Source of the DNA: a bacterium
Lineage (GTDB): Bacteria; Lindowbacteria; 2-12-FULL-62-27
Assembly: GCA_016202645.1 (NCBI GenBank)
Contig: JACQOF010000132.1
Span: forward strand, 1 to 20,260
DNA: 20,260 bases
Reading direction: 5' to 3'
Shown: one piece after another, positions 1 through 19,114 of the stretch
How positions within the stretch are numbered: the stretch's first letter is position 1
Layout: the number at the start of each line of letters is the position of its first letter
The notes under the pieces: generated by a model
The model's input: only the letters and a program-made list of their open reading frames with translations
Told to the model about the DNA's origin: nothing
The model's database searches: none
Program-made: the position numbers and the translations under genes

Positions 1-1245
1 CACATGCACCGGTTCCTCCACCGCCGTGCGGAAAATTTCCCTGCCGGCGGCGTCGAAGGCGATGACGGTGTCATTGTACATCGTGAAAGGGATTTTTTTG
101 CCGCGATGGTCGATCTCGGTCTCGTAGACCTTTTTTCCCTCCTCGATTTCGTACCGGAAAATAATCGCCTGGTGTTTTCGGAAAAGCTGGAGGACGGCCA
201 GAAGCTCGCGGCTCGGCGCGACGTACGTTTCGATGGCCGAATCGACGCCGGGGCCGAACATCTGACGCAGGTACGGGCGCGGCACCCATCGCGGCGGGAT
301 GTAGTAGCCGTTCGGTTCGGTGCCGAACTGTGGGTAGAGAGGGAGCGCGACTTTGGCGACGTGGACGAGATAATACAGCGGGTTGGACCGGTCCTCTTTC
401 CAAAACCCCGTTTTTTGATCGATCCCGACGAGTCCCTGCAGGCGGATCTGGCCGACGCACGCTGTCATGCACCGAGTCTCCATCGGGCGGCCTTCCGAAA
501 TCGGATCTTTCCCCTCGATGCGCGGGTAGCAGGCTACGCATTTCTCCGACACGCGCGTCGTCCCGCGGTACATCGGTTTTTTGTACGGGCAGGCCTCAAC
601 GCACTTGCGGTATCCGCGGCACCTCTGCTGGTCGATGAGCACAATCCCGTCCTCCTCGCGCTTGTAGATCGCCTTGCGCGGGCAGGCCGCCAGACACGCC
701 GGATAGGTGCAGTGATTGCAGAGGCGCTGAAGATAAAAAAACCACGTGCGGTGCTCGGGAAGCGCCGAGCCCTCCTCCGACATGGGCCGCGCGGCACTGG
801 CCTTGCGATAAGAATCTTCAAACGTCACGGCTGCGTCCTCGCCGTGGTTGGGGCCGCGCCAGGCGTCTTCGTCCGGGATGAATCCGACCGCGCGCTTGTG
901 GCCGTCCGGGCCGTAGTATTTTTCGGCGGCTTCGAAAATAGTCTGGCCGTTGAAAATGCCGTTGTTCCACACCTGCCCGCCCGGATTGGCCTGTTCGAGC
1001 ATCGAGAGGAGTTTGACGTCCCAGAATTTCGGATAGCCGCCGTAGGGTTTGGTCTCGACGTTGTTCCACCACATGTATTCCTGGCCTTTCGAAAACGTCC
1101 ACGTCGATTTGCAGGACATGGTGCAAGTCTGGCAGGCGATACAGCGGTTGATGTTGAACACGAACGCGAACTGCTTGTCGGGGTGCGCATCGTCGTAGGG
1201 ATACGACATCTTTCGGCCGATCTGCCAGTTGTAGACTTCAGGCAT
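1..1245 (-). CDS. nxrB: Nitrite oxidoreductase/nitrate reductase iron-sulfur (beta) subunit, NxrB type, 3' end outside window
   Basis: This is the electron-transfer subunit of a type II DMSO-reductase-family enzyme; it passes electrons between the Mo subunit and the haem subunit. The frame is open for 415 codons from ATG 1245 to the window edge. Four cysteine groups are visible: C35/C38/C41/C45, C176/C179/C184/C188, C209/C215/C219 with Tyr212 where a fourth Cys would be, and C236/C239/C259/C263. That is the NarH layout of three 4Fe-4S clusters and one 3Fe-4S cluster. The N terminus (MPEVYNWQIGRKM), the YMWWNNVETKPYGGYP stretch and GTEPNGYYIPPRW match what I remember of Nitrospira NxrB (about 429 residues), so only about 15 residues should be missing. 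There is no signal peptide, so it probably crosses the membrane with Tat-carrying NxrA. A GGAG element lies 7 bases before the ATG, and only 2 bases separate it from the nxrA stop. A Nar-like nitrate reductase role is the alternative. Confidence 0.93.
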   Translation of the reverse strand, partial: MPEVYNWQIGRKMSYPYDDAHPDKQFAFVFNINRCIACQTCTMSCKSTWTFSKGQEYMWWNNVETKPYGGYPKFWDVKLLSMLEQANPGGQVWNNGIFNGQTIFEAAEKYYGPDGHKRAVGFIPDEDAWRGPNHGEDAAVTFEDSYRKASAARPMSEEGSALPEHRTWFFYLQRLCNHCTYPACLAACPRKAIYKREEDGIVLIDQQRCRGYRKCVEACPYKKPMYRGTTRVSEKCVACYPRIEGKDPISEGRPMETRCMTACVGQIRLQGLVGIDQKTGFWKEDRSNPLYYLVHVAKVALPLYPQFGTEPNGYYIPPRWVPRPYLRQMFGPGVDSAIETYVAPSRELLAVLQLFRKHQAIIFRYEIEEGKKVYETEIDHRGKKIPFTMYNDTVIAFDAAGREIFRTAVEEPVHV

Positions 1246-1247
1246 GG

Positions 1248-4200
1248 CTACACTCCCTCCACTTTCGTGAGGTCCCCGGTCAGGTACGCCTGCATCACGC
1301 TGTTTTCGTTTCCCGGCGTAAACCCGCTCGTCGCGGGCGCCCAGACGCCCTTGCCGCCGAGGCCGCCCGGTTCGGCTTTCGTGATTTTCACGAGGGTCTC
1401 CTTCGGCGTCGTGTTGATCATGTGGTTGTCGGCTTCGCCGCCGAACAGGAAAGCCATCCCGATTTTGGTTTTGTGAAAGAGCGTGTCGGTCTGGTGCATC
1501 GGCATGAGCCACGATCGCGTGATCGACTGCTGGGAACCATACCTCAGGTTCGACTGATAACCGGTGTCAGCCGAAAGCGCCCGGCCGTCCGGCCGCGTCT
1601 CGTGGGCCTTGACGCTGCGCTCGGTCGCGATGAACGGCGCGTGTTTCATCATCACCGTGTGGTACGGATAGGCGGGATTGTATTTCACGCGGAGCATCAG
1701 CCGCGCCACGCGGTAAAACGGGTCGGTCGGCTTCCAGCCGATGTAAGGGCGGTCGGCCGGGTTGGCGTCGACGTAGACGTAATCGCCGTCGCCGATTCCC
1801 AGGTCCCGCGCGGTGGCGGGATTGATGTGCAATTGATGCTCCCCGACCCCCGGCATGCGTTTGTCCACGCGGTACGGATCGCCGAAATTGGAATCCCAGA
1901 TCAGATTCCAGTCGGTGTCGCTCCACTGCGAGTGGACGCGGTGGCGGGTTTTGGGCGTCAGGCAGAAAAATTTGTATCCTTTTTCCCAAAGAGGATTGAC
2001 CGTACGCTTCACGGCGGGCCACGGTTTTTTGACGTTCCGCACGTGCCGCGCGTCCCAATGCATCTCGCTTTCGGGGATGCCGAAATCGTCCGGCCGGATG
2101 AAGGGATTGGAGCTGACGATGACATTCGGCAGATAGGGCGTCGCCTCCGGGCCTTCCCGGTGGACGATGAAATTCTCGCCGTGCTCGATGGCGTCCGGGA
2201 TGTCGCAGTAGGCGTTGAGGCGGCCGGTGTCGGTCCAGAACGGATGGTCCTCGTGGACCTGCTCGTAAAATGGAATGCGCGGATAGGTGCGGTAGAGCAT
2301 GAGCGCGACGCCCGGCTCGCCGTATTTTCCGGCCATGATGTCCTCGTACTTGTAGCCGCGCAGGGTGGACGACGCGTCGAGGAGGCGCTGAATGTAAATC
2401 TCCGGACGGCCTTCGAGCGCGAATTTCCAGTATTCCTCGCACCGTTTGTCGTTGATCACTTCCCCAACCGCTTTGGCCATTCCGGCGAGGATCATGACGT
2501 CGTCGCGCGAGTCGTAGAGCGGCTCGATCCCGCCTTTCCAGATTTGAACAAACGGGTTGGAGCAGGACGTCGTGATCTCGGCGGTTTTCGTCTCGCACCA
2601 GCTGCTCGCGGGAAACGCGAAATCGGCGTATTCGATGCTGGCGGTCATCTGGATGTCGTTGGACAAGATCATGTCGATTTTTGGGTCGACGTTTTTGATC
2701 ATCTCATAAGCCCACTTGGCGTTGTTGATGAGATTGACGTTCGTGAACCAGATGGCTTTGGTGGGCGTCGGCATGTGGGATTTGCCGGTGAAAACTTTCC
2801 GGCCGTATTTCGGCGTGTTCACGATGAGGGGTTTGTCCCCGTGGTTCCAGTAGGCGACGGCCTCGTCGCGGATGTATGCGTGGACGTGAATATCCTTGCC
2901 GTCCGCGTTCGGATCGAGGTTCGGTTCGAACGGGTCCTCGGCGATCCACGTCTTGAATCCCTTGCCGCACCAGGGCGCCGCCTGAAAATTGGCGGCTTTG
3001 TAGTTGCCCGCCCACGTGTGCGACCCCGCGCCGGGAAGGCCGATGTTGCCGGTGAGCATGAGGGGCAGGTAGGTCGCGCGGTTGACGAGAGTGGCGTGGA
3101 ACCAGTGGTTGATGCCTTCGCCGACGTGGATCGCAGCCGGCTTGATGGCCGCGATATCGCCGGCGAGCCGCCGCACAAGTTCCTTCGGGGCGTTGGTCAT
3201 CTCGTGGACGGAATCGAGATCGTAGTCACGCAGGTGGATTTTATACATCTCAAAAAGCGGCATGACCTCGAGTTCACGGCCGTTCGACAGTTTAACGACG
3301 AATTTCCCCTCGATGGCCGCGTCGATCCCGAGTTTGGCGAAATTCTTTCCAACTTCGTCCCGGCTCACGGCTTGGGGGCCGCGCGTCTTGAGGTCCCACA
3401 CGACAAAATCGCCGAGTTTCACGCGCTGGTCGTCCGTCAGGCCCTGTACCTCGTAGCCCACGCCGCCGCGAAGGTCCTTGAGGGTGTATCCGGGAAACAC
3501 GTCCGACGCCTTGAGGCGGGTCAGGGTGTCAGTCCGTACCAGGAGAGGAAAGTCGGTGAACTCCCTGACGAATGCGGCGTCGTATTTCTTTTCGTCGATG
3601 AGCAGTTTCGTGAGGCCGAGGAATAGCGCCGTGTCGCTGTTGGGCCGGATCGGGATCCAGTAATCGGCCTTGGTCGCCGGCGGGCTGTACTCGGGCGTGA
3701 TGACAACGATCTTGGCGCCGCGTTCGAGCGTTTCAATGAACCAGTGGGAATCGGGCATTTTGTTTTCGACGAGGTTCTTGCCGCACTGGATGTGGAGTTT
3801 GGTGAATCGCAGGTCGTTGAAGTCGCAGTCGGAGGCCTGAAGACCGTGGACGAACGGGTGGCCGGGCGCCTGATCGCCATGCCAGGTGTAATTGTCCCAG
3901 ATGCGGCCGGCCAGGGCGCTTCGGCGGTCGACGCCGCGGACATGAACGTCAACCAGCGCCAGCGTGTTGCAGAACCGGTACATGCCGTACTTGCCGATGA
4001 CGCCGAGGAGTCCCATCCCGCCGCGGGTTTTGATCGCGCGCGTTCCTGCGCCCTCCATCGCCTCGACCATCTCGGGCGCGTAGCCTTCGGCCAGAAGTTT
4101 TCTCCGGCCGTCGTCGCCGCTGTAGTGTTTGGCGATCGCGACGAATCCCCGCGCGGCGTATGAAAACGCCTCATCCCACGTCACGCGCAAAAATTTGTCC

Positions 4201-4778
4201 TGGCCACGCGCGGTGAATTTGTATTTGTCACGGAGCGCCGGCGTGAGATAGGGAAATCCGTCGTCCGCCCAGGCCTTCCAGCCTTTGCGCAGGAGCGGCT
4301 GCTTGAGCCGGTAAGGCCCGTAGACGCGCCGCGGAAACGTCATCCCTTTCGGGCACATCCGCGGGTTCCAGTTGCGGGTGGCCTTGTTGCCGTAGAGGTC
4401 CCCGTAGTTCTGCGTGTCGTAATTCTGCTCGACCCGGACCATCACGCCGTTCCGGACGAACGCGCGGACGCGGCAGGCATGGGTGTCGTTGGGCGAGCAC
4501 ACATAGGTGAATGAGCTGTCGTAGCGGTACTGGTCGCGATAGACTTTTTCCCAGCCGCGTTCCGGATAATAGTCGAGGGGATTTTCGACTCCGACGATGG
4601 ATTTGAGCTGTCGGAGATTTGGTTTGCCGCAGGCGGCCAGAAGCGCCGCGACGCCGGTTGCCTGAACGAAGCCGCGGCGCGAGATGGTCCACTGGGGTTG
4701 GGGATTTTGGATTTCGGATTTTGGATTTCGGATTTTGGATTTCGGATTTCGGATTTCGGATTTTTTTGGATCGGTCAT
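1248..4778 (-). CDS. nxrA: Nitrite oxidoreductase/nitrate reductase molybdopterin (alpha) subunit, NxrA type, Tat exported
   Basis: Catalytic bis-MGD molybdenum subunit of 1176 residues, close to the size of Nitrospira NxrA. The ATG at 4778 is chosen because AAGGAG lies 7 bases upstream and because it makes an ATGA overlap with the preceding gene. The frame stays open to 5060, but that would duplicate the end of the upstream gene. Residues 7-28 are a translated heptamer repeat (SEIRNPK type). A twin-arginine motif SRRGFVQ follows at 33-39, then a hydrophobic stretch ending LLAAC (Cys50), a possible lipobox. The FS0 region is C94, D98, C102 and C142 (MCPKG). Asp302 in WHGDQAPGHP corresponds by eye to the Mo-ligating Asp of NarG. 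KMPDSHW and the C-terminal molybdopterin-dinucleotide-binding part are present and the frame is intact. The Nxr identity is inferred mainly from the partner subunit. The direction of catalysis (nitrite oxidation or nitrate reduction) cannot be read from the sequence. Confidence 0.92.
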   Translation of the reverse strand: MTDPKKSEIRNPKSKIRNPKSEIQNPQPQWTISRRGFVQATGVAALLAACGKPNLRQLKSIVGVENPLDYYPERGWEKVYRDQYRYDSSFTYVCSPNDTHACRVRAFVRNGVMVRVEQNYDTQNYGDLYGNKATRNWNPRMCPKGMTFPRRVYGPYRLKQPLLRKGWKAWADDGFPYLTPALRDKYKFTARGQDKFLRVTWDEAFSYAARGFVAIAKHYSGDDGRRKLLAEGYAPEMVEAMEGAGTRAIKTRGGMGLLGVIGKYGMYRFCNTLALVDVHVRGVDRRSALAGRIWDNYTWHGDQAPGHPFVHGLQASDCDFNDLRFTKLHIQCGKNLVENKMPDSHWFIETLERGAKIVVITPEYSPPATKADYWIPIRPNSDTALFLGLTKLLIDEKKYDAAFVREFTDFPLLVRTDTLTRLKASDVFPGYTLKDLRGGVGYEVQGLTDDQRVKLGDFVVWDLKTRGPQAVSRDEVGKNFAKLGIDAAIEGKFVVKLSNGRELEVMPLFEMYKIHLRDYDLDSVHEMTNAPKELVRRLAGDIAAIKPAAIHVGEGINHWFHATLVNRATYLPLMLTGNIGLPGAGSHTWAGNYKAANFQAAPWCGKGFKTWIAEDPFEPNLDPNADGKDIHVHAYIRDEAVAYWNHGDKPLIVNTPKYGRKVFTGKSHMPTPTKAIWFTNVNLINNAKWAYEMIKNVDPKIDMILSNDIQMTASIEYADFAFPASSWCETKTAEITTSCSNPFVQIWKGGIEPLYDSRDDVMILAGMAKAVGEVINDKRCEEYWKFALEGRPEIYIQRLLDASSTLRGYKYEDIMAGKYGEPGVALMLYRTYPRIPFYEQVHEDHPFWTDTGRLNAYCDIPDAIEHGENFIVHREGPEATPYLPNVIVSSNPFIRPDDFGIPESEMHWDARHVRNVKKPWPAVKRTVNPLWEKGYKFFCLTPKTRHRVHSQWSDTDWNLIWDSNFGDPYRVDKRMPGVGEHQLHINPATARDLGIGDGDYVYVDANPADRPYIGWKPTDPFYRVARLMLRVKYNPAYPYHTVMMKHAPFIATERSVKAHETRPDGRALSADTGYQSNLRYGSQQSITRSWLMPMHQTDTLFHKTKIGMAFLFGGEADNHMINTTPKETLVKITKAEPGGLGGKGVWAPATSGFTPGNENSVMQAYLTGDLTKVEGV
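4705..4760 (-). repeat. Heptamer tandem repeat translated in the NxrA N terminus
   Basis: Eight contiguous copies of TCCGAAA or TCCAAAA (read on the minus strand) begin six codons after the nxrA start. Because three 7-mers make seven codons, they encode a 7-residue peptide period, SEIRNPK/SKIRNPK/SEIQNPQ. The same unit occurs at 5563-5590 in the next gene upstream. Confidence 0.95.
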
Positions 4779-5611
4779 CTGGTTTCTCCTTGTGAAGTTT
4801 CGGTTCTTTCCTTGCATCGCACGCAAACCGGCGAATCGTCGCGCAGGTCCGGGAATTCCGCCTTCAGGGCGGCCCGGACGCCGGGCGACAATTCCGAAAC
4901 CTGAATGATGTCCTCGGACGGAAAGCGGCACAGATCGCAAATGCCCGCCGCGACGGCCTGCGACCCGAGCTGGGCCCTGCAGAGGTCGAACATTTCTGGA
5001 AACGTCCGGCGGCCGCCTGCCTCTCCGGTTTGCAGACGCCCCTCGGCCGACGACGCCCACATGCCGGAGAGCGCGGCGCGGATGCGCTCCTTTTCCGAGG
5101 GCATCATGTTGTCCAAAAGTTCCGGGGCGTGGCCGAAGGACGGATCAAAGCAGTCGGCGGCCTGGATGAGTTCCCGGCGCAGGTTCGCACGGAATTCCTC
5201 AACCGGCGCGAATGACTCCGGCCGGCATCGCAGAACCATCCGCCCGTCCCTGGTCACGTCAACGCCTTCCTCTGCGCGGCTCCGCGCCGCGATGATCGTG
5301 ACGGACGAGGCCGCGGCCAGCGACGCCTCGCGTTCCGCCAGACATTCGTCCACCACGGTTGGGATCCCGATGCGCTGAAAAAATCTTCGGTCAAGCGCGG
5401 CGAACGCGGCTTCGCGGCCATATTCCGGCTGGTCGTAGATGTCGTCCAGCTCGGCGCGGTATGACGCGATCCATGCCGAATCGTTGTCCGAAGCGGCGTC
5501 CACGCGCCGCCGGACCGCCGATTCGATCAAGGCGGGATCGTAGGTGACGGGGGGGATCTGGATTTCGGATTTCGAATTTCGGATTTCGGATTTGCCTTTC
5601 AACTCTTTCAT
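4775..5611 (-). CDS. Unassigned protein with C-terminal CxxC pairs, encoded inside the nxr operon
   Basis: A 278-residue soluble protein that I cannot assign to a family. The ATG at 5611 is chosen because it forms an ATGA overlap with the stop of the cytochrome gene, and its own stop makes an ATGA overlap with nxrA, so all three should be translationally coupled. No signal peptide or membrane segment is seen. After a translated heptamer repeat (residues 8-18) comes a mostly helical, charged body, including the segment LRRELIQAADCFDPSFGHAP. Near the C terminus CDLCRFP and VCVRC form two CxxC pairs about 30 residues apart, a likely zinc or Fe-S ribbon. The place between the subunit genes suggests a dedicated maturation or assembly factor taking the role of NarJ, but I see no TorD/NarJ signature. 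That role is inference only. The alternative is a small structural or regulatory subunit. Confidence 0.82.
   Translation of the reverse strand: MKELKGKSEIRNSKSEIQIPPVTYDPALIESAVRRRVDAASDNDSAWIASYRAELDDIYDQPEYGREAAFAALDRRFFQRIGIPTVVDECLAEREASLAAASSVTIIAARSRAEEGVDVTRDGRMVLRCRPESFAPVEEFRANLRRELIQAADCFDPSFGHAPELLDNMMPSEKERIRAALSGMWASSAEGRLQTGEAGGRRTFPEMFDLCRAQLGSQAVAAGICDLCRFPSEDIIQVSELSPGVRAALKAEFPDLRDDSPVCVRCKERTETSQGETR
4786..4791 (-). promoter_or_regulatory. Shine-Dalgarno site fixing the nxrA start
   Basis: AAGGAG on the minus strand lies 7 bases before ATG 4778. It sits inside the last codons of the upstream gene and supports the short nxrA start rather than the far upstream one at 5060. 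Confidence 0.8.
5563..5590 (-). repeat. Second heptamer tandem repeat, in the N terminus of the CxxC protein
   Basis: Four copies of the TCCGAAA unit (one with a T substitution) start seven codons after ATG 5611 and encode SEIRNSKSEI. The unit and reading phase are the same as in nxrA (4705-4760), giving the same peptide. Confidence 0.9.
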
Positions 5612-7149
5612 GGCCGGAGCGCCATCCGGTGCCACTGCGACACCACTTTCTGCCCGTCCCGGTCGCCGGCGGCGCCGTCCCAGATCGCGATCGCGATCGG
5701 CCGCTCGTCTCCCATCGAAAACATTGCGTCCATCTCGTCTCCGGAATGAAGTTCGTGCAGGAGGACCAGCGTCCAGACGCCGCCGCGCCACTGGCCGTTG
5801 CCGGCGATGCTCTGATGGCCGTGCGGCTGGGCGGTAAGACTGCCGGGGCCTTTGGCGTTGTATTCGGTGCAGGGGCTTTTGCGTTCGGGATCGGAGAGGG
5901 GGTTTTCAGCCGCCCACGCCGTGAGAAACGTCGGATCGTCATAGTCTTTGACCGGTCGCAGGCGATCGTCGTGGCGCGCGCCGCTCCAGTCCTTCCCCAA
6001 AAACGGATACGCGTCGGCCACCATGTTCGGATAGGCGCTTTCGACGTCCCGCCGCTCCCGCTCCGCCAGTTTGAGGTCAATGTCCGCCTGAAGATCGGCC
6101 TTCCAGTGCCAGATGTTCGACGGCGAGAGCACGGCGCCCATGCCGAAAAATCCGGGTTCATCGGACAGCGGGAACTGCACCGCCGCCGCGTCGACGAACC
6201 GGTCGACTTCGACGTTTGAGGCGTCCTTCGACGGATCAAACCAGACGAGATGCACCGCGAGCGTTTTGCCGTCATGCGCCGCGCGGACTTCCGCGAAGCG
6301 CGGAAACCGGGAGCGCTGCCAGAGGGGGCGGAGCGCGACGCGGACCGGCGGCGATTTCGTCCAGACCGGATCGTATGGATTGTCGGTTATTTTGGAGGTC
6401 AAGGCCGCCACGATGGTTTGCGGCTCGTCGGAGAGACTCGATTCCGTGGAGAGGGATTTCACGTATAGCGTCAGGTTCCAGCGTTCCTCGTCTGTCAACA
6501 ACTCCCCGAAACTCGGCATAGGCGTTCCAAGCATGCCGGTGGTAAATCGCGTGTAGATGTCGCGGGGATCATCGCCGCCTTTGAATATCCCGAGCGTGAA
6601 GTCAGCCGGCGGAATGGGAAACCCCAGATCGTCCTTGAGCGCCGCCGCAGACGGCCCGTCGCCGACGCCGCCGGCGCCGTGGCATTTGGCGCACTGCATT
6701 TTTTCGTAGACTGATTTTCCCGACGCAAGCCGGGTCGGTGTCACCGCCGGCGGAGAGCCGGCATGGATCGGCTGGGAGGGCGGCGCTGAAAAGGCATCCG
6801 GGGCGAGTGTTTTAATATGGGAAAGGACGGCGGATATTTCCCTATCCGACAGGCGCCCCTTCCACGCCGGCATCGCCGAGCCCGCCATGCCGTTTTCCAC
6901 GACACGCCGGAGATCCTCCTCGGTCGGCGCCGGATCCATGACGGACCGGATTTTGTATACGCCCCGCGTGAAATCCCTGGGACGCGGATACAAAAATCCC
7001 GCCAGCTCGCCGTCGCCTTTTCCCGCCGCGCCATGACACGGCGCGCAGGAAGTTGCGTAAACTCTCCGACCGACATCCTCGGAAGGAATCCGCCCACAGG
7101 CAACAAGGAACAGCGATAAGATACCGACCGAACAGAATTTTCGATTCAC
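5608..7149 (-). CDS. Diheme cytochrome c lipoprotein fused to an ethylbenzene-dehydrogenase-type haem-b domain; candidate NxrC (gamma) subunit
   Basis: Predicted electron-accepting subunit of the NXR complex (513 residues from GTG 7149). This start gives MNRKFCSVGILSLFLVAC, a clean lipoprotein signal with LVAC lipobox at Cys18, so it is probably membrane-anchored and periplasmic. A TTG at 7197 would add 16 residues; neither start has a clear Shine-Dalgarno sequence. Two cytochrome-c sites follow: C35-x2-C38-H39 with a likely Met93 ligand, and C153-x2-C156-H157 with Met211. Residues about 255-513 resemble the EB_dh haem-b domain of type II gamma subunits: VDRFVDAAAVQFP, FFGMG (Met337) and GQKVVSQWH (Lys501) match the places of the Met/Lys haem-b ligands known in ethylbenzene dehydrogenase. 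It would collect electrons from NxrB on haem b and pass them through two haem c to a soluble carrier. It is the first gene of the operon and overlaps the next by 4 bases. Confidence 0.88.
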   Translation of the reverse strand: MNRKFCSVGILSLFLVACGRIPSEDVGRRVYATSCAPCHGAAGKGDGELAGFLYPRPRDFTRGVYKIRSVMDPAPTEEDLRRVVENGMAGSAMPAWKGRLSDREISAVLSHIKTLAPDAFSAPPSQPIHAGSPPAVTPTRLASGKSVYEKMQCAKCHGAGGVGDGPSAAALKDDLGFPIPPADFTLGIFKGGDDPRDIYTRFTTGMLGTPMPSFGELLTDEERWNLTLYVKSLSTESSLSDEPQTIVAALTSKITDNPYDPVWTKSPPVRVALRPLWQRSRFPRFAEVRAAHDGKTLAVHLVWFDPSKDASNVEVDRFVDAAAVQFPLSDEPGFFGMGAVLSPSNIWHWKADLQADIDLKLAERERRDVESAYPNMVADAYPFLGKDWSGARHDDRLRPVKDYDDPTFLTAWAAENPLSDPERKSPCTEYNAKGPGSLTAQPHGHQSIAGNGQWRGGVWTLVLLHELHSGDEMDAMFSMGDERPIAIAIWDGAAGDRDGQKVVSQWHRMALRP

Positions 7150-7278: not shown

Positions 7279-7315
7279 ATGACCGTTTGGTCATTTGCAA
7301 CGACCTTCCGGTCAT
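7279..7315. promoter_or_regulatory. Tandem inverted repeats, candidate double operator
   Basis: ATGACC-GTTT-GGTCAT at 7279-7294 is a perfect 6+6 inverted repeat. ACGACC-TTCC-GGTCAT at 7300-7315 is the same site with one mismatch. Their centres are 21 bases apart, two helical turns. The pair lies between the divergent nxr operon (start 7149) and corA (start 7449). This is the geometry of a dimeric repressor or activator, TetR-like in appearance, but the regulator is not in the window. Confidence 0.6.
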
Positions 7316-7361
7316 CTCACCTTGGCATGCTGTTTCCAGATTTCACAGTGGCGCAAATAAA

Positions 7362-7379
7362 CGAATTCGTCTGAATTCG
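7362..7379. repeat. Perfect inverted repeat in the corA upstream region
   Basis: CGAATTC-GTCT-GAATTCG is a perfect 7+7 inverted repeat with a 4-base loop. It could be an operator or a short hairpin, and no T run follows. It lies 70 bases before the corA start. Confidence 0.5.
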
Positions 7380-7409
7380 GGAGAGGGGTCAATATATCCC
7401 CGCCAAGAC

Positions 7410-7438
7410 TTGCGAAAAATCTCCACGGAAAGTACTAC
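7410..7438 (+). promoter_or_regulatory. Weak candidate corA promoter close to the start codon
   Basis: TTGCGA (7410-7415), a 17-base spacer and TACTAC (7433-7438) lie 10 bases before the corA ATG. The boxes match the consensus only 4/6 and 3/6. The call rests on spacing and on the same layout at three other genes here. Confidence 0.3.
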
Positions 7439-7448
7439 AGCGGTCTGT

Positions 7449-8420
7449 ATGGAGACGAAATTGCAGACCAAACTCCATGTCATACGGGAAACCGCCGTGG
7501 AGGCCGTACCCATCGAGCGTCTGCCTGAACTGATCACGGCAGGCGAGACGGTCTGGCTGGACGTTCTGGGGAAGGACCAGGCGGAATTCGCGTCGTTGGT
7601 CGAGCCTTTCGGGTTTCATCCCCTGTCCCTCGAAGACGCGATGGAGGCGGTTCTCCGCCCGAAGGTCGAGACGTTTTTGAATTATGTTTTCATCGCCGTG
7701 CGCGCGATCAACCACGAAGCCGGCGCCAGGCCGCACGACACCATCGGCCTGAAACTCTTTCTCGGCGAACGCTTTCTCGTGTCCGTCCACCGCCGGCCCA
7801 TCTCCAGCATCGCCACCGTACAGGCGCGACTGCCGCAGCTGCTCAGGCGAAGTTCCCACCCGTCCATTATTCTCGCGGACATGTGCTCGGATGTCATCGA
7901 TTATTTTGATCCGGTCGTGAGGAACCTCGAAGACCGCATCGAGGAACTCGAGGAGGCGTCCTTTCAGAATCCGTCGGTCTCTGCCGGCGAGGCGCTTCTG
8001 GCGGCCCAGCGGGAGGTTCTGCTTCTGCGGCGGGCGGCGGTCCCCGTCCGGGATCTTCTTCACACAGTTCTCGACCGCGCCGATCCCCTGATCACGGCTG
8101 AATCGCGCGTGCATCTCCGGGACGCGCTCGACGAAATCACCCGGATCACCGACTGGCTCAACATCCTTCGCGATCTCTCCACCGGCGCCCTCACCATGTA
8201 CCAAGCCGCCCTCGACAATCAGACCAACGCCATCATGAAATTCCTGTCCATCGCCGCCACCCTGGCATTGCCCCTCAACGTCATCGTCGGATTCTACGGC
8301 ATGAACGTCGCGAACCTTCCCGCCGCCAGAGAAACCTGGGCGGTCTTCATGGTCGTCGGCATCATGGCCTCCGTCCTTCTGTCCCTGCTTCTGGTCTTCC
8401 GGAGAAAACGCTGGATTTAG
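7449..8420 (+). CDS. corA: CorA-family Mg2+/divalent metal transporter
   Basis: Inner-membrane channel of 323 residues, normal for CorA. A long soluble N-terminal region with acidic helices is followed by two C-terminal transmembrane helices. The diagnostic YGMN motif (GMN at about 284-286) ends the first helix and the protein finishes with a basic FRRKRWI tail. The ATG at 7449 is chosen because homology-like sequence (METKLQTKLHVI...) begins there; the frame extends upstream to 7287 only through the control region. There is no Shine-Dalgarno sequence. It is the only plus-strand gene in the window, divergent from the nxr operon and ending 6 bases from the convergent σ54-activator gene. It probably carries Mg2+, but the family also includes Ni/Co/Zn transporters. 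Confidence 0.93.
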   Translation: METKLQTKLHVIRETAVEAVPIERLPELITAGETVWLDVLGKDQAEFASLVEPFGFHPLSLEDAMEAVLRPKVETFLNYVFIAVRAINHEAGARPHDTIGLKLFLGERFLVSVHRRPISSIATVQARLPQLLRRSSHPSIILADMCSDVIDYFDPVVRNLEDRIEELEEASFQNPSVSAGEALLAAQREVLLLRRAAVPVRDLLHTVLDRADPLITAESRVHLRDALDEITRITDWLNILRDLSTGALTMYQAALDNQTNAIMKFLSIAATLALPLNVIVGFYGMNVANLPAARETWAVFMVVGIMASVLLSLLLVFRRKRWI

Positions 8421-8426
8421 GCCGGG

Positions 8427-9914
8427 CTAGGACGCGGGGATGTTCAGTTCCTTCAACAACCTCGACAAATATGTCCGTTGAATTTCCAGAATTTTCGCGG
8501 CGGCGGTCTGGTTCCCGCCGGTCTGCGCGAGACTCTTGATGATGTAGTCCCGCTTGAAGCGGTGCTGGGCCTCCTTGAACGAAACGATACGGTCGTCTGA
8601 AAGTTCTTTCATCTGCGTCAGCGATAAATGTTTGAATTCGATCTTGTCCGTCGTGCACAGCACCACCGCTCGCTCGATGGCGTTCTGAAGTTCCCGTATG
8701 TTGCCGGGCCAGGAATAGTCCTGGAGCAGTTTCGAAGCGCGCTCCGAAAATCCGTGGATCTTCTTCTGCATCTGCCGCGTATATATCTTCAGGAAAAAAT
8801 CCGCCAGGACCGGAATGTCCGTTTTGCGCGCACGGAGCGGCGGTATCTGAAGCGGGACGACGTTGAGACGATAATAGAGGTCCTCCCGGAACCGCTTTTC
8901 CCGGATCTCCTCATCGAGCCGCTTGTTCGTCGCCGCGATCACCCGCACATTCACCTCGATCGGCTCCGCGCCACCCAGACGCTCCAGAACCCGCTCCTGC
9001 AAAACCCGGAGAAACTTCACCTGAAGCGACATCGGCAGTTCCGCAACTTCGTCAAGAAAGAGCGTGCCGCCGTCCGCCAGCTCAACTTTTCCCAGTTTCC
9101 GACCGGCGGCGCCGGTGAAGGCGCCTTTTTCGTAGCCGAAGAGTTCCGCCTCCAGAAGCGTTTCGGGGATGGCGCCGCAGTTGATCGCGAGGAACGGACC
9201 CGACGCGCGCGGACTTTCGTTGTGGATCGCCTGCGCCAGAAGCTCCTTGCCGGTGCCGCTCTCGCCGAGAATGAGAACGGTCGAATTGGTCTTCGCGACC
9301 ATCCGCCCCGTCTCGATGATCTGCTCCACGACGGGATCTTGCGACTGGATGTCCTTGAAGGAATACCGCGCCGATAAGGCCGATTTCAAGTTCCGGTTCT
9401 GCTCGAAAATCCGCTCGTACAAACGCGCCTTGTCGATCGCCAGCGCCGCCTGATTCGCGAAAACTTCGAGAATCTCCACGTCCTCGCGGCTGAACTGGAT
9501 TTCCGCCGAAGAATGGATCACCTCCAAAACACCCACCGTGCGGCCTTTCACCTTCAGCGGAATCGCCGCCATCGACTCATGCTGTTCCTCCAGCTCGTCC
9601 GCGATTTTTTTGTAAAACCGCGGATCCTTCGACGTGTCCGGCACCACCACGGTCTCGCCGTTCTTCGCAACCCAGCCCGCAATCCCCTTCCCCAACGGCA
9701 GTGTATACTTCTTGACCTCCTTTGCCCCAGGGCCGGTCGCCGAGACAAACTTCAAATTCTTCCCGGAATCGTCGATCAACAAAATCGCCCCCGCCTCAGC
9801 CGACACGATCTCCGACGCCGATGTGAGCACACGGTCCAGCACTTCGGCAAATCCCGTCTCGCTGTTGACCAGCGCAAGTGTCTCAAATAGTTTCTTGAAT
9901 TTTTCCTGATCCAT
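8427..9914 (-). CDS. σ54-dependent transcriptional activator with N-terminal GAF sensor (NtrC/NifA-like)
   Basis: Cytoplasmic regulator of 495 residues. A GAF domain (about 20-165) replaces the usual receiver, so it should sense a small ligand or redox state rather than phosphorylation. The AAA+ domain follows: Walker A GESGTGKE at 217-224, the σ54-contacting GAFTGA loop at 264-269, Walker B GGTLFLDEV at 282-290, then the sensor segments and the SWPGNIRELQN signature. The C terminus is a Fis-type helix-turn-helix (TGGNQTAAAKILEIQRTYLSRLL). Its target genes are unknown, and I found no convincing -24/-12 promoter in the window. It stands alone with a good σ70-type promoter immediately upstream and converges on corA. 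An NtrC, FhlA or NorR type would fit equally well, though no NorR-specific feature was recognised. Confidence 0.95.
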   Translation of the reverse strand: MDQEKFKKLFETLALVNSETGFAEVLDRVLTSASEIVSAEAGAILLIDDSGKNLKFVSATGPGAKEVKKYTLPLGKGIAGWVAKNGETVVVPDTSKDPRFYKKIADELEEQHESMAAIPLKVKGRTVGVLEVIHSSAEIQFSREDVEILEVFANQAALAIDKARLYERIFEQNRNLKSALSARYSFKDIQSQDPVVEQIIETGRMVAKTNSTVLILGESGTGKELLAQAIHNESPRASGPFLAINCGAIPETLLEAELFGYEKGAFTGAAGRKLGKVELADGGTLFLDEVAELPMSLQVKFLRVLQERVLERLGGAEPIEVNVRVIAATNKRLDEEIREKRFREDLYYRLNVVPLQIPPLRARKTDIPVLADFFLKIYTRQMQKKIHGFSERASKLLQDYSWPGNIRELQNAIERAVVLCTTDKIEFKHLSLTQMKELSDDRIVSFKEAQHRFKRDYIIKSLAQTGGNQTAAAKILEIQRTYLSRLLKELNIPAS

Positions 9915-9927
9915 ACAGGTTCAACGG

Positions 9928-9956
9928 AGGATACAGCAAGATTTGTATCGAGTCAA
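9928..9956 (-). promoter_or_regulatory. σ70-type promoter of the σ54-activator gene
   Basis: TTGACT (9951-9956), exactly 17 bases, then TATCCT (9928-9933) on the minus strand, 13 bases before ATG 9914. Transcription would start about 6 bases before the ATG, leaving almost no leader and no room for a Shine-Dalgarno site. Confidence 0.6.
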
Positions 9957-10011
9957 CTTGTGTATACCTTTAAAGGGTGAGGCAGGATATTTCTATACGC
10001 TAAAGTGATCC

Positions 10012-10362
10012 CTAAATGGGAATTCGCCGGATGGTCACTGTGCGGATGTAGTCATGGAGAAGTTTCTTCTGGATCGGAGTGATGGAGACAAATTGAAGAC
10101 CCATGATGGTAGTGTCGCGCCAGCGCACGACAACCTTCGTGTTCACGATCTTGCCGTTCATTCGAAACTTGAGGCGGCAATCGCCGCCCTCGTCAATGTC
10201 CGTCAGATTTTCGTGCGCGAACGCGCATCCGACCAGACTGATGTTCACGATATATCCGACGTAATACTTCTTCTTGTATCGAACTTCCGTCCGGAAAAAC
10301 GCGATCGCCCGGACCGCCCGCCGACGATCCTTTGCGCCGCCCGATTTCTGCGTTGTGGCCAT
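10012..10362 (-). CDS. Single-domain PilZ protein, probable c-di-GMP receptor
   Basis: Soluble protein of 116 residues, nearly all PilZ domain. Both c-di-GMP-binding elements are present: RRAVR (R14-x3-R18) near the N terminus and NISLVG (N40-x-S-x2-G45), the (D/N)xSxxG motif that starts the beta barrel. Such stand-alone PilZ proteins act as adaptors that change motility, secretion or a partner enzyme when c-di-GMP rises. No partner is encoded beside it: the gene lies 97 bases upstream (in minus-strand sense) of the σ54 activator and 49 bases after nupC, so it is probably its own transcript. The ATG at 10362 has no Shine-Dalgarno sequence but has a promoter-like -10 box 9 bases away. Confidence 0.9.
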   Translation of the reverse strand: MATTQKSGGAKDRRRAVRAIAFFRTEVRYKKKYYVGYIVNISLVGCAFAHENLTDIDEGGDCRLKFRMNGKIVNTKVVVRWRDTTIMGLQFVSITPIQKKLLHDYIRTVTIRRIPI

Positions 10363-10371
10363 GTTGGGTCA

Positions 10372-10400
10372 AGAGTACCGGAGAAGATTCATAAAATCAA
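10372..10400 (-). promoter_or_regulatory. Candidate promoter of the PilZ gene
   Basis: TTGATT (10395-10400), 17 bases, then TACTCT (10372-10377) on the minus strand. The -10 box ends 9 bases from ATG 10362, implying a leaderless or nearly leaderless transcript. Confidence 0.42.
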
Positions 10401-10411
10401 GAAAAATTCTC

Positions 10412-11671
10412 TCAGACCAGGATTCCCGCGACGGTGGCGGTCATGAAGGAGGCCAGGGTGCCGCCCCACCACGCCTTCATGCCGAGGCGCGCCAAGTCCT
10501 GCTTGCGGCCCGGCGCCAGCGCGCCTATGCCGCCGATCTGGATGCCGATGGAAAGAAAATTCGAGAATCCGCAGAGGGCGTACGTCGCAATCACGACGGA
10601 CCGCGGGTCCAGGACGCCCGGATTGGCTTTCAAGTATTCAGCCATGTGCAGATACGCGACGAATTCGTTTAGAACGGTCTTTTCGCCCATGAACTGCCCG
10701 ATGATCTGGCAGTCCTTCCAGGGCGTCCCCATGACCCACGCCAGAGGCGAGAAAATAAGCCCGCAAATCTTCTCGATGGTCATCCCCGCCACGCCGAACT
10801 GGCCGAAGGTCCACCCAACGCAGGCATTCGCCATGGCCAGGAGCGCCATGAAGGCCACCAGCATGGTGCCGACGTTGAGCGCGAGCTGTAAACCCGTTGA
10901 TGCGCCGTTGGCCGCCGCTTCGATCACGTTGATGCTCGGATCCTTGTAGGCGATCTCCAGAGTCCCGAGAGTTTTCGGGTGGGAGGTCTCCGGGATCATG
11001 ACCTTCGCGATGACGATGGTCGCGGGCGCCGACATGACGCTCGCCGCAAGCAGGTGGCCGGCGATGTCGGGGAAATAGGCGTTCAGCATCCCGACGTAGG
11101 CCGCCATGACGCCGCCCGCCACGGTCGCCATCCCGCCGATCATGACGCACAAAAGTTCCGACTCGGTCATGTCATCGATGTAGGGCTTGATCAGAAGCGG
11201 TGCCTCCGTCTGGCCCACAAAAATGTTGGCGGAAACCGACAGCGTCTCGGCGCCGGACGTTCCCATGAACCGGCGCATCACCCGGGCGAACATCAGCACC
11301 ACCCACTGCATGACACCCAAATAATAGAGAACGGAAATCAGGGAAGAGAAAAAAATAATCGTGGTCAGCACCTGAAAGGCGAAGAAAAATCCAATCGACC
11401 CCGGCGCACCCGGCGGAATGGCCAGGGCATTGAAGACGAACTTGGCGCCCTCGGTCTGGAAGGAGAGGATGTTCATGATGAGCTGGTTCATCCTGTCGAA
11501 GAACCATCGACCCGGCGGGGTCTTGAGAACCACAAAAGCGAAAACGAATTGAAGCGCCAGTCCCCAGAGGACGGGACGCCATTTGACGCCGCTCCGGCTC
11601 TTGCAGAATATCCACCCCAGAAACACCATGATCAACGTGCCGAACAGACTGACAATCCCGTGAATCTCCAA
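10412..11671 (-). CDS. nupC: NupC-type concentrative nucleoside transporter (CNT family)
   Basis: Inner-membrane nucleoside/cation symporter of 419 residues with about ten hydrophobic segments. CNT signatures are clear: NIFVGQTEAPLLIKPY for substrate and ion binding, NEFVAYLHM, and the C-terminal YALCGFSNFLSIGIQIGG. I chose TTG 11671 (MEIHGIVSLFG) because a strong GGAGGT lies 5 bases before it and the hydrophobic protein starts there. The longer ATG frame from 11797 would cover the end of the protease-like gene. Only one base separates the upstream stop codon from the TTG, so the Shine-Dalgarno sequence is inside the upstream gene and the two are coupled. It probably takes up nucleosides for salvage. 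The specific substrate is unknown. Confidence 0.93.
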   Translation of the reverse strand: MEIHGIVSLFGTLIMVFLGWIFCKSRSGVKWRPVLWGLALQFVFAFVVLKTPPGRWFFDRMNQLIMNILSFQTEGAKFVFNALAIPPGAPGSIGFFFAFQVLTTIIFFSSLISVLYYLGVMQWVVLMFARVMRRFMGTSGAETLSVSANIFVGQTEAPLLIKPYIDDMTESELLCVMIGGMATVAGGVMAAYVGMLNAYFPDIAGHLLAASVMSAPATIVIAKVMIPETSHPKTLGTLEIAYKDPSINVIEAAANGASTGLQLALNVGTMLVAFMALLAMANACVGWTFGQFGVAGMTIEKICGLIFSPLAWVMGTPWKDCQIIGQFMGEKTVLNEFVAYLHMAEYLKANPGVLDPRSVVIATYALCGFSNFLSIGIQIGGIGALAPGRKQDLARLGMKAWWGGTLASFMTATVAGILV

Positions 11672-11672
11672 G

Positions 11673-12092
11673 TCACACCTCCCCTGGCCGTATTTTTGAA
11701 AAGGCGCTGGTTTTGCCGTCCATGCACACCCGAAATCGATCCAATCCCTGAAACCGGCCAAGCAGGGGCGGGACGGCGTCATTCGAAGAGAATACAACGG
11801 ACATGCTGAATTCAGTGGATCCGATCCTGCAGGAGAGGGGTTTTTCGCAAAAATGTCCAGCCGCCGATCCGCCGACGCCGTGGGATTTTATCGGCCGACA
11901 ATCTTTATTCAGGGATATTCCCAGCTCACGGCCCACCTTGCCGGGCAGATAGGTAAAATCCGCCCCACTGTCAACGATCACGTCAATGTCCAGCCAGAAG
12001 CCTTTGATGGATTTGACGCCCAGGATTGCAACTGGCAAACCCTTGGAACCGCGGCCTTTTTTTGAATAAGGCAGATAAGGAAAGGAGGCCAT
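11673..12092 (-). CDS. Retropepsin-like aspartyl protease family protein
   Basis: Small protein of 139 residues from ATG 12092. The segment DVIVDSGADFTYLP carries the D-S-G-A catalytic triad of retropepsin-like aspartic peptidases, with a glycine-rich flap-like GVGGSA further on. The C-terminal PPLLGRFQGLDRFRVCMDG is the usual 'LLGR-F-DRF' ending of bacterial members. One such half-site domain would act as a homodimer. There is no signal peptide, so it is probably cytoplasmic and its substrate is unknown. The ATG shares its A with the stop codon of the 65-residue gene before it (TGATG), and its stop is one base from the nupC start, so it is the middle of a coupled three-gene chain. Whether it is an active protease cannot be told from the sequence. 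Confidence 0.8.
   Translation of the reverse strand: MASFPYLPYSKKGRGSKGLPVAILGVKSIKGFWLDIDVIVDSGADFTYLPGKVGRELGISLNKDCRPIKSHGVGGSAAGHFCEKPLSCRIGSTEFSMSVVFSSNDAVPPLLGRFQGLDRFRVCMDGKTSAFSKIRPGEV
11677..11682 (-). promoter_or_regulatory. Shine-Dalgarno site deciding the nupC TTG start
   Basis: GGAGGT on the minus strand, 5 bases before TTG 11671 and within the last codons of the upstream gene. It justifies a non-ATG start. Confidence 0.75.
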
Positions 12093-12289
12093 CAACGGCA
12101 AATGAGAATCCACGTGCCCGAAGATTCGAAAGACAAATGGGGTGTCTTGCCTTCCTTGACCATTTTCCCGCACATCTTGTGAATCTCCAGCCAGGAATTT
12201 TTGCACACCAACCGTTGGCCGTCATAAAGGCGGTATGTAATGGCAGCCCTGCGTTTATTGGCGGCGGGTGAACATTTTTTCTTTTTCAC
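12092..12289 (-). CDS. Small unassigned basic protein (65 residues)
   Basis: Not recognised. The GTG at 12289 is chosen because a near-consensus promoter ends 6 bases before it; the frame continues upstream only through that promoter. The protein begins MKKKKCS, is rich in Lys/Arg with three further Cys residues, and contains ITYRLYDGQRLVCKNSWLEI. It has no membrane segment. The stop overlaps the start of the retropepsin-like gene (TGATG), which implies co-translation and perhaps a physical partner, substrate or regulator of that protein. The overlap with a real gene downstream and the strong promoter are the evidence that it is expressed. A chance frame is possible. Confidence 0.62.
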   Translation of the reverse strand: MKKKKCSPAANKRRAAITYRLYDGQRLVCKNSWLEIHKMCGKMVKEGKTPHLSFESSGTWILICR

Positions 12290-12295
12290 AGGACA

Positions 12296-12324
12296 AGTAT
12301 AGGGCCAGACAAAAAATCTGTCAA
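12296..12324 (-). promoter_or_regulatory. Near-consensus σ70 promoter of the small gene-protease-nupC chain
   Basis: TTGACA (12319-12324, 6/6), exactly 17 bases, TATACT (12296-12301, 5/6) on the minus strand. Only 6 bases lie between the -10 box and GTG 12289, so transcription should begin at or next to the start codon. It is the best promoter match in the window. Confidence 0.75.
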
Positions 12325-12354
12325 GAATGGCGGGGCGTGGTGCCGAATGGGAAT

Positions 12355-12421
12355 GTGTCGGTGTCGGGGTGTCGGGGGTCATTCTTGGTGTCGGTGTCGG
12401 TGTCGGGGGTCATTCTTTGTC
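12355..12421. repeat. GTGTCG hexamer repeats interleaved with GGGGGTCATTCTT units
   Basis: Runs of GTGTCG (at 12355, 12361, 12369, 12388, 12394 and 12400) alternate with GGGGGTCATTCTT at 12374-12386 and GGGGGTCATTCTTT at 12405-12418. A third copy begins the inverted repeat at 12422. The whole 12290-12516 interval holds no gene beyond the promoter at its left end. Confidence 0.85.
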
Positions 12422-12483
12422 GGGGGTCATTCTTTAACAAATGTAACAGACTCCAATGTTATGATTGTTAAAGAATGACCCCC
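12422..12483. repeat. Long inverted repeat, REP/MITE-like palindrome
   Basis: GGGGGTCATTCTTTAACAA (12422-12440) is perfectly complementary to TTGTTAAAGAATGACCCCC (12465-12483), a 19-bp stem with a 24-base loop that itself holds TAACA/TGTTA. No U run follows on either strand, so it is not a classical terminator. It lies 33 bases past the stop of the copper lipoprotein gene. The sequence type recalls dispersed REP-like palindromes, but no transposase is nearby. Confidence 0.85.
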
Positions 12484-12516
12484 TGTCCCCCTGTCTCCCC
12501 TTTAATAAATTTAGAC

Positions 12517-13350
12517 TTACCAGAGAAAATTCAGGCGATGGGATTCGGCGGAAACGACCAGCTTGGGCGGGGTGCCCGGCAGGGACCGGTCGTCAGATTG
12601 GATGTCCCGGGGGGCGTTCAGGCTTTCGTGCCAGGTTCGGACGGTATACGTTCCCGGGGCGACGCCTTCAATGCGGGATGTTCCCATTGTGTCGGTGACG
12701 GCCGCGTAAGGATTATCGGTCACGACCAGGTAGGCGGTCATCCAGTAGTGAACGTCGCAAACAATTTTTGCGATCCCGGACTTCTCGATTTGCAGGGTCA
12801 GCTCCTTGACCGACGCGGGCTGGGCCCTGGACTGGCGGCGGAAGAGCCCCGCCACGGGCGAGATCGAAATTGTATGCAGAATGCCATCACTGTTGAATAC
12901 ACGGACGGGACGGCCGGGGCGGGCCAGGCCCACATGCGGAATGAACCGGCAGGCTTTCTGGTCCAGAGGCGCGGCGTGAAATTCTGAGGGGGCGGGGACG
13001 GGAACTGACGGGATGAGTTCCACGAAGACATGGGCCAGTTCACCCTTCGGGCCGACCACCAGGGATTCGTCCTCAATCTGGCCGCCGCAGACATGCGCGT
13101 CGGTCGTGACTCGCGAGGGCGGCTTGGCACGAAGGGTTCCGGCGTACACGGCGGTAATTTCGACGCGGGACGCGGGTGCGGCGGATGCATTGGACTGCGG
13201 AGCCGGAGGCGGACGATGGTCGACGCTGGCGGGGGATCCGCAGGCGGTGAGGACAGACATGCCGAAAACAACGAGTGCAGAGGGCGTCACCCCCCTCCCG
13301 ACCTCCCCCTCAGGGGGGGAGGAGGGAAGAGGATGACAAAATCGGAACAC
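12517..13350 (-). CDS. Cupredoxin-like lipoprotein with a probable type-1 copper site
   Basis: Exported protein (277 residues from GTG 13350) with a hydrophobic stretch ending in lipobox LTAC. The ligand pattern of a type-1 copper site is visible: His in NSDGILHTISI, then C-D-V-H-Y-W-M (Cys-x2-His-x2-Met). The segment that follows, PYAAVTDTMG to APGTYTVRTWHE, looks like a small carboxypeptidase-regulatory/CNA-B-type beta domain, a combination I recall from periplasmic proteins annotated as plastocyanin- or methylamine-utilisation-like. It may carry electrons or bind copper. The GTG overlaps the upstream stop (TAGTG). However, the first 20 codons translate a G/C-rich palindrome, so GTG 13290 (257 residues) or a lost ancestral start is possible. 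It is the last gene of the GldG-type operon. Confidence 0.8.
   Translation of the reverse strand: MFRFCHPLPSSPPEGEVGRGVTPSALVVFGMSVLTACGSPASVDHRPPPAPQSNASAAPASRVEITAVYAGTLRAKPPSRVTTDAHVCGGQIEDESLVVGPKGELAHVFVELIPSVPVPAPSEFHAAPLDQKACRFIPHVGLARPGRPVRVFNSDGILHTISISPVAGLFRRQSRAQPASVKELTLQIEKSGIAKIVCDVHYWMTAYLVVTDNPYAAVTDTMGTSRIEGVAPGTYTVRTWHESLNAPRDIQSDDRSLPGTPPKLVVSAESHRLNFLW
13302..13322. repeat. GC-rich hairpin at the 5' end of the copper lipoprotein gene
   Basis: CCTCCCCC (13302-13309) pairs with GGGGGAGG (13315-13322) across a 5-base loop, with further partial C/G pairing outside. It resembles dispersed intergenic palindromes whose translation reads PPEGE-type peptides, and it makes the start of the overlapping gene uncertain. 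Confidence 0.6.
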
Positions 13351-13856
13351 TACCGGCCTGATTCGAGCAGTTGCCGGACTGTAAAGGGATTGAAATCCCG
13401 CACGGCGCGGACGGATGGGTTGCCGGACTGACGCATGTAGGTCAGGAGTCCATCCGGGGCGCGTTTGCCGGCGAAGAGCGCGATGCCGGATGTATCATTC
13501 AAGGAAATCCGGACGGCGGCGGTTTCTTCAAGATCGAACAGCGAATATTTTCCGGGAGAATCGGTCACCACGTAAATGGAGGTCAGACCGCCGAGCATTT
13601 CCAGAAACTGCGAGACAACACCAGTGTCTGCTGGAATCTCACCCGTGTCCGTCGCCACCGACCAGCCGATAAGTTCGCGCCGGAGCCGGACAGATTTTCC
13701 GCCGGGGTCAGCGACCGAGATCAGCGAGATGTTGTCCGGCGAGACGGAGATCCAGGCGGCGGGGGGAGGCGTGGAGGGCAGACGGCCGCCAATGACATAC
13801 AGCGCCAGAAGCCCCGCGGCGAGGGCCGTCCAGATCGCCAAGGTCCGGGGGCTCAC
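13350..13856 (-). CDS. DUF4340-type membrane-anchored protein of the GldG operon
   Basis: A 168-residue protein with one N-terminal transmembrane helix (LAIWTALAAGLLALYVIGG) and a periplasmic domain. GTG 13856 is chosen because it forms a GTGA overlap with the GldG-family stop; the frame runs on to 13877 inside that gene. The domain pattern (a conserved W-x-V repeat such as GWSVATDTGEIPADTGVVSQFLEML, then SLNDTSG and a final RDFNPFTVRQLL) is that of DUF4340 proteins, which commonly follow gldG-like genes. These proteins usually have several repeats and are longer, so this is a short one-repeat version. Its function is unknown. Co-encoding suggests a partner of the ABC complex. Confidence 0.75.
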   Translation of the reverse strand: MSPRTLAIWTALAAGLLALYVIGGRLPSTPPPAAWISVSPDNISLISVADPGGKSVRLRRELIGWSVATDTGEIPADTGVVSQFLEMLGGLTSIYVVTDSPGKYSLFDLEETAAVRISLNDTSGIALFAGKRAPDGLLTYMRQSGNPSVRAVRDFNPFTVRQLLESGR

Positions 13857-17012: not shown

Positions 17013-17034
17013 GATGTTTGGTGGCAAACCCTGT

Positions 17035-19095: not shown

Positions 19096-19114
19096 TTCCT
19101 CATGGAAAATTAGG

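Follow-up and report, generated by a model that had tools for sequence, protein, structure and literature searches.

We identified genes for a nitrite oxidoreductase (NXR) at one end of a 20,260-base stretch of DNA (the window), which is one entire contig (G000:C110, positions 1 to 20,260) of a Candidatus (Ca.) Lindowbacteria metagenome-assembled genome (MAG). The operon probably encodes a periplasmic NXR-family enzyme, of the type found in anammox bacteria, Nitrospira and Nitrospina, that operates mainly as a respiratory nitrate reductase feeding NrfHA. The finding adds Ca. Lindowbacteria to the hosts of the NXR family, and no paper in the library searched ties this group to NXR. The main interest lies in the host phylum, the likely direction of the reaction and an unexplained protein family (P0003) encoded within the operon. 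The assembly is 2.9 Mb in size and 82% complete, and genome content was probed one protein family at a time within this assembled fraction.

Catalytic and iron-sulfur subunits

NxrA matches Kuenenia NXR (PDB 7b04) with 1904 bits, and the next PDB family scores 204 bits. The protein is 67% identical to the Kuenenia subunit (955 columns) and 77% identical to those of two Planctomycetota MAGs, compared with 24-25% to NarG and 26% to ClrA. The alignment shows retention of the FS0 ligands (C97, D101, C105 and C145), the substrate-binding N100 and the Mo ligand D305, as assigned in the Kuenenia enzyme (Chicano et al., 2021; PMC8387239). FS0 ligation is thus predicted to be Cys3/Asp rather than the His type of NarG. 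In a quick maximum-likelihood tree, for which only Shimodaira-Hasegawa-like approximate likelihood ratio test (SH-aLRT) support is available and long outgroup branches leave the root uncertain, NxrA groups with other Lindowbacteria (support 100) and then with Planctomycetota loci L023, L047 and L065 (support 99). The clade also holds anammox, Acidobacteriota, KSB1 and other sequences. The tree includes Brocadia, Kuenenia, NarG and ClrA rows, without named Nitrospira, Nitrospina, Ser, Ddh, Ebd or Pcr sequences. By sequence, the operon enzyme is a true NXR and a typical representative of this known family.

Two other enzyme types were weighed. A preliminary description of this DNA had proposed a periplasmic NXR-type enzyme, a proposal that would fail if NxrA fell within the NarG clade or that of another substrate. 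Both NarG and ClrA lie outside the NxrA clade, and the Kuenenia matches and ligands agree with the proposal. A cytoplasmic or membrane-bound nitrate reductase of the NarGHI type shares only distant homology with the protein (133 bits to the narG model, against a curated score of 1084). We give it negligible likelihood in view of the export signal described below, the FS0 Cys/Asp ligation, the low NarG identity, the tree placement and the lack of narI. An enzyme of the type II DMSO-reductase family acting on chlorate, selenate, ethylbenzene or dimethyl sulfide would have an EB_dh gamma subunit, a TorD chaperone and a soluble periplasmic design, as here, and the subfamily models TIGR03477-79 do match. 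However, all three scores are below the model cut-offs, FS0 is not of the His type, and NxrA is far closer to Kuenenia NXR than to ClrA and is separate from ClrA in the tree (Ebd and Pcr were compared by pairwise score only). We consider such an enzyme very unlikely.

NxrA carries the twin-arginine translocation (Tat) motif SRRGFVQ and scores 18.9 bits with TIGR01409 (cut-off 16.7), in line with the Tat-type signal noted earlier. A lipobox-like LLAAC-G follows the motif in all three Lindowbacteria sequences. Several Acidobacteriota have AAC-T, and the anammox sequences lack the feature.

NxrB, present as 415 amino acids, matches the Kuenenia subunit with 588 bits (next PDB family, 207 bits). 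The nearest relatives found are from Planctomycetota (72-74% identity). Across up to 45 aligned rows, each of the 15 NxrB cysteines is retained in 42-45. The protein starts MPEVYNW and has no Tat signal.

Another NxrA-like type, with identities of about 40-44%, was found in L088 (G002:C365, 2241-8479) and also in L008, L009 and L144. It has its own B subunit, and in G002, a Lindowbacteria genome that carries both NxrA types, gamma and TorD genes as well. This type clusters with an enzyme encoded on a plasmid of the haloarchaeon Natronococcus. At L010 (G077:C2, 571-3097), NxrA is split across several frames and lies next to a frame resembling NxrB; this nxr locus may have decayed or been poorly sequenced.

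Gamma subunit

The first gene of the operon encodes a lipoprotein (lipobox LFLVAC-G) with two CxxCH sites and a C-terminal EB_dh domain (Pfam E 1.7e-21; TIGR03477 113 bits, under the curated cut-off), as the preliminary description had it. The start at 7149 corresponds to that of the orthologue in L022, and M337 and K501 are numbered from it. A Kuenenia di-haem cytochrome (6h5l_B) aligns to residues 41-250 of P0004 with 202 bits, and NxrC (7b04_C) to residues 301-527 with 101 bits. The model (mean predicted local distance difference test score, pLDDT, 77) aligns with a TMt of 0.92 to 6h5l_B, 0.67 to 7b04_C and 0.78 to EbdC (2ivf_C). Because the PDB matches, aligned ligands and model fits agree, a three-haem subunit (two c haems and one haem b) is well supported as a prediction.

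The fusion of a di-haem cytochrome to a haem-b domain had been taken as distinctive, an idea that was dropped after a survey of 48 nxr genome loci from many phyla, compared for gene content and order. About 25 of these loci have a two-haem fusion gamma or a truncated copy, and the hosts include Acidobacteriota, KSB1, Planctomycetota, Poribacteria and Tectomicrobia, among others. In several anammox clusters a fusion gamma lies a few kb from nxr, besides the simple NxrC. Subunits combining haem c sites with a haem-b domain were described in Nitrospina as alternative NxrC subunits (Lücker et al., 2013; PMC3578206). The fusion gamma is not special because it occurs in many phyla and was already described in Nitrospina.

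Table 1. Positions of the NXR operon genes and their functional sites in the window
Feature	Position	Strand	Basis
NxrB, iron-sulfur subunit, cut by contig end (415 aa present)	1..1245	-	588 bits to Kuenenia NxrB
NxrA (P0002), molybdopterin catalytic subunit	1248..4778	-	1904 bits to Kuenenia NxrA 7b04_B; tree
Mo ligand Asp305 of NxrA (Kuenenia Asp275)	3873..3875	-	alignment; PMC8387239
C-S-P-N-D of NxrA (FS0 Cys97 and Asp101, substrate Asn100; P0002 numbering)	4485..4499	-	alignment; ligand identities PMC8387239
Tat motif SRRGF of NxrA, then lipobox-like LLAAC-G (Cys codon 4629-4631)	4668..4682	-	sequence motif
P0003, NXR-cluster protein, 278 aa; zincin-like predicted fold and four-Cys ribbon	4775..5611	-	homologues, model, structural rows
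CxxC of P0003 (C263, C266), invariant	4814..4825	-	alignment
CxxC of P0003 (C225, C228), invariant	4928..4939	-	alignment
RELIQ of P0003 (residues 146-150), site of HExxH in 22/28 family members	5162..5176	-	alignment
Gamma (P0004), lipoprotein, 513 aa, GTG start; N-terminal di-haem cytochrome c and C-terminal haem-b EB_dh/NxrC (predicted)	5608..7149	-	Pfam/NCBIfam, PDB matches, model
Predicted haem-b axial Lys (K501 of gamma; Kuenenia NxrC Lys305)	5647..5649	-	alignment, PMC8387239; nearly invariant
Predicted haem-b axial Met (M337 of gamma; Kuenenia NxrC Met155)	6139..6141	-	alignment, PMC8387239; nearly invariant
Second CxxCH haem c site (C153-H157 of gamma)	6679..6693	-	invariant in 19 fusion gammas
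First CxxCH haem c site (C35-H39 of gamma)	7033..7047	-	invariant in 19 fusion gammas

Operon structure and genomic context

The four minus-strand open reading frames (ORFs) are transcribed in the order gamma, P0003, NxrA and NxrB (Table 1). The gamma stop overlaps the P0003 start, and the P0003 stop the NxrA start, in both cases as ATGA, and two bases separate the NxrA stop (1250-1248) from the NxrB ATG (1245). The number, strand and tight coupling of the ORFs are as first described. The same description regarded the operon as a complete, self-contained set of four genes lacking narJ. Completeness and chaperone absence are not supported, because the contig terminates within nxrB and relatives carry torD.

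The closest loci are in the Ca. Lindowbacteria MAGs RIFCSPLOWO2_12_FULL_62_27 (G001; locus L022, on a 508-kb contig) and nzgw232 (G002; L021), which share the gamma-P0003-A-B order. In G001, torD (PF02613) begins one base past nxrB and is followed, via an ATGA overlap, by a gene for a protein of about 90 amino acids. The G002 contig with the remainder of nxrB has the same order of nxrB, torD and the small gene. A PF02613 search of the window's own genome gave no match, which would be expected had the contig break cut torD off. We identified no narI among the operon ORFs here or in the relatives' operons, and its absence, also noted earlier, holds for the module in general.

The nxr contig is just 20 kb long, and it could in principle derive from a different organism through a binning error. 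This is highly improbable, as both relatives have the same gene order and an NxrA that is 89-90% identical, in one case on the 508-kb contig. The host is Ca. Lindowbacteria, which agrees with the earlier remark that the genome is not that of a known nitrifier.

Of the 48 surveyed loci, 33 show TorD, and many of the remainder are truncated. With s denoting the gene for the ~90-amino-acid protein, the order is gamma-P0003-A-B-TorD-s in Lindowbacteria, gamma-A-s-B-TorD-P0003 in Acidobacteriota and KSB1, P0003-A-s-B-TorD-gamma in Planctomycetota and g-B-TorD-P0003-A in anammox bacteria. The window operon is one permutation of the standard NXR gene set, and its composition is not unusual. Two accessory proteins that accompany NXR across phyla are singled out by this comparison, the P0003 family and the ~90-amino-acid protein. 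The latter is encoded at 14447-14722 of L022 and by short ORFs at 19 further nxr loci (several matches are weak, with E up to 1e-3). Its gene follows torD in Lindowbacteria and lies between A and B elsewhere.

Direction of the reaction

The preliminary description left open whether the enzyme is nitrite-oxidising or nitrate-reducing. A check of the genome for oxidases, carbon fixation and nitrite reductase favours nitrate reduction. We identified NrfA (448 bits, five CxxCH) beside a gene for a four-haem NrfH-like protein, as well as three cytochrome-b loci (four match rows, two of which are one gene) and one NrfD-type protein. No haem-copper oxidase (PF00115) was found in the assembled genome; a weak bd-like match (49 bits) lies beside a cytochrome b. 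No RuBisCO was identified over the cut-off (there is a single sub-threshold match of 45 residues), and no nitrate-type molybdoenzyme besides NxrA was seen. NirS (PF02239) was not found in this genome, and the relatives have weak partial matches only. Purified Kuenenia NXR works in both directions (PMC8387239). Because nrfHA is present, no haem-copper oxidase, RuBisCO or other nitrate reductase was found, and the Kuenenia enzyme is bidirectional, the gene content points to reduction of nitrate via nitrite to ammonium as the likely process in the host, in preference to nitrite oxidation.

In the alternative, electrons from nitrite would pass via the gamma cytochrome to an oxidase, and Lindowbacteria would be nitrite oxidisers. 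Nitrite oxidisers are abundant in the NXR clade (PMC10732223), and both G001 and G002 have COX1 genes, one of which shares the 508-kb contig of G001 with nxr. By contrast, the window's own genome has nrfHA, neither a PF00115 match nor RuBisCO, and only the bd-like match noted above. We consider nitrite oxidation unlikely, but several points weigh against the preferred reading of nitrate reduction. The absences in the host genome are weak evidence, and nitrite oxidation is possible, because this genome is incomplete and both relatives have haem-copper oxidases, one of them (G001) also a NapA-like enzyme (identified by sequence, read by eye). Nor did we find a carrier that would connect gamma with a quinol complex. 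A further COX1-like match near nxr in G001 (C4:69726, 26 bits) was rejected as an oxidase; it is below the cut-off and the ORF appears NnrS-like by eye. The authors of a study of 19 Planctomycetota NXRs met the same ambiguity of direction (PMC10732223). A combined-term literature search on NXR with nrfA gave no match.

For nitrate reduction to ammonium, we envisage that TorD (just past the contig end, judging by the relatives) would insert the cofactor, after which the folded NxrA-NxrB would be co-exported via the Tat route. Electrons would be exchanged between the Mo site and FS0 in NxrA, relayed by the iron-sulfur clusters of NxrB to and from the gamma haem b, and passed between the gamma di-haem domain and periplasmic carriers and bc-type complexes. 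The LLAAC-G of NxrA and the lipobox of gamma suggest lipid anchoring, so that lipid, instead of a NarI helix bundle, may hold gamma and probably NxrA at the membrane. Nitrite formed from nitrate by NXR would then be reduced to ammonium by NrfHA. More generally, nxrA and nxrB genes in MAGs should not be taken as nitrite oxidation without context; the nitrogen genes here point to conversion of nitrate to ammonium.

P0003 family

Profile searches with Pfam and NCBIfam gave no family match for P0003. Homologues (22-57% identical) are present in 35 of the 48 nxr loci, and E147, D153, W185, R192, C225, C228, C263 and C266 are invariant in the family. Of 28 members, 22 have HExxH on the helix containing E147, and all three Lindowbacteria have RExxQ there; P0003 itself has RELIQ in place of the zincin motif. 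The P0003 model (pLDDT 90) contains a three-stranded sheet. A sequence search against solved structures found nothing, and Foldseek with the model gave no match under E 0.001. Zincin metallopeptidases make up most of the leading VIA-align rows, with Z reaching 7.0 over about 90 residues, values that chance similarity can also produce. The model is suggestive of a zincin-like fold.

P0003 was also considered as a NarJ/TorD chaperone and rejected: none of the 28 members matches PF02613, the model has a sheet whereas those chaperones are all-helical, and relatives have a separate torD. In anammox clusters a P0003 homologue appears, by position, to occupy the place of kustd1701, which is listed as an unknown protein (PMC6423088). 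Lücker et al. (PMC3578206) mention a putative zinc-finger protein in NXR clusters, which may be the P0003 family. A role in maturation is a guess. Quite tentatively, the family could be an unrecognised, zincin-derived NXR maturation factor with a C-terminal zinc ribbon, found in most NXR clusters and many phyla and reduced to a pseudo-enzyme in Lindowbacteria, where it and a lipid-anchored NxrA would belong to an NXR dedicated to nitrate-to-ammonium respiration; we regard this whole proposal as doubtful.

Tandem heptamer repeats of the AAATCCG type, encoding KSEIRNP repeats, lie in frame directly after the nxrA start (4702..4764, minus strand) and directly after the P0003 start (5560..5593, minus strand). 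In L022 only the P0003 start carries such a repeat, in a short version, and a further array occurs in G000:C48 (L098).

Comparison with known systems

Kuenenia stuttgartiensis NXR-ABC (kustd1700/1703/1704) shares with the window enzyme its FS0 Cys3/Asp, Asn and Mo-Asp residues and the gamma Met/Lys pair, besides the high NxrA identity. Unlike the window operon, its NxrC has no fused di-haem domain, its NxrA has no lipobox Cys, its cluster includes NXR-T and many cytochromes in a different gene order, and the enzyme is located in the anammoxosome. Nitrospina gracilis alt_NxrC (likened here by description) are candidate NXR gammas with haem c sites and an EB_dh haem-b domain, but they are additional to simple NxrC copies and lie outside the nxrABC operon. 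Clusters in Acidobacteriota, KSB1 and non-anammox Planctomycetota MAGs (L023, L034, L046, L047, L065 and others) have the fusion gamma, a P0003 homologue, A, B, TorD and usually the ~90-amino-acid protein, and differ from Lindowbacteria in gene order. In the Kuenenia Kustc0457/Kustc0458 complex, the di-haem cytochrome (6h5l_B) resembles the 210 N-terminal residues of gamma, but it partners a hydroxylamine oxidoreductase (HAO)-like protein and is not fused to a haem-b domain. EbdABC and ClrABDC also follow the A-B-gamma plan, with gamma of the haem-b EB_dh kind and a chaperone of the TorD type, whereas they belong to another substrate clade, have an FS0 His ligand and lack c haems in gamma.

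Other genes in the window

None of the remaining genes (7287-20239) is a recognised nitrogen gene. They encode CorA, a GAF/sigma-54 activator, PilZ, a nucleoside transporter and a retropepsin-like protein, as well as DUF4340 and Gld-like ABC transporter proteins, a TPR/LysM protein and a Mg-chelatase/ComM-like ATPase (the last identified by eye).

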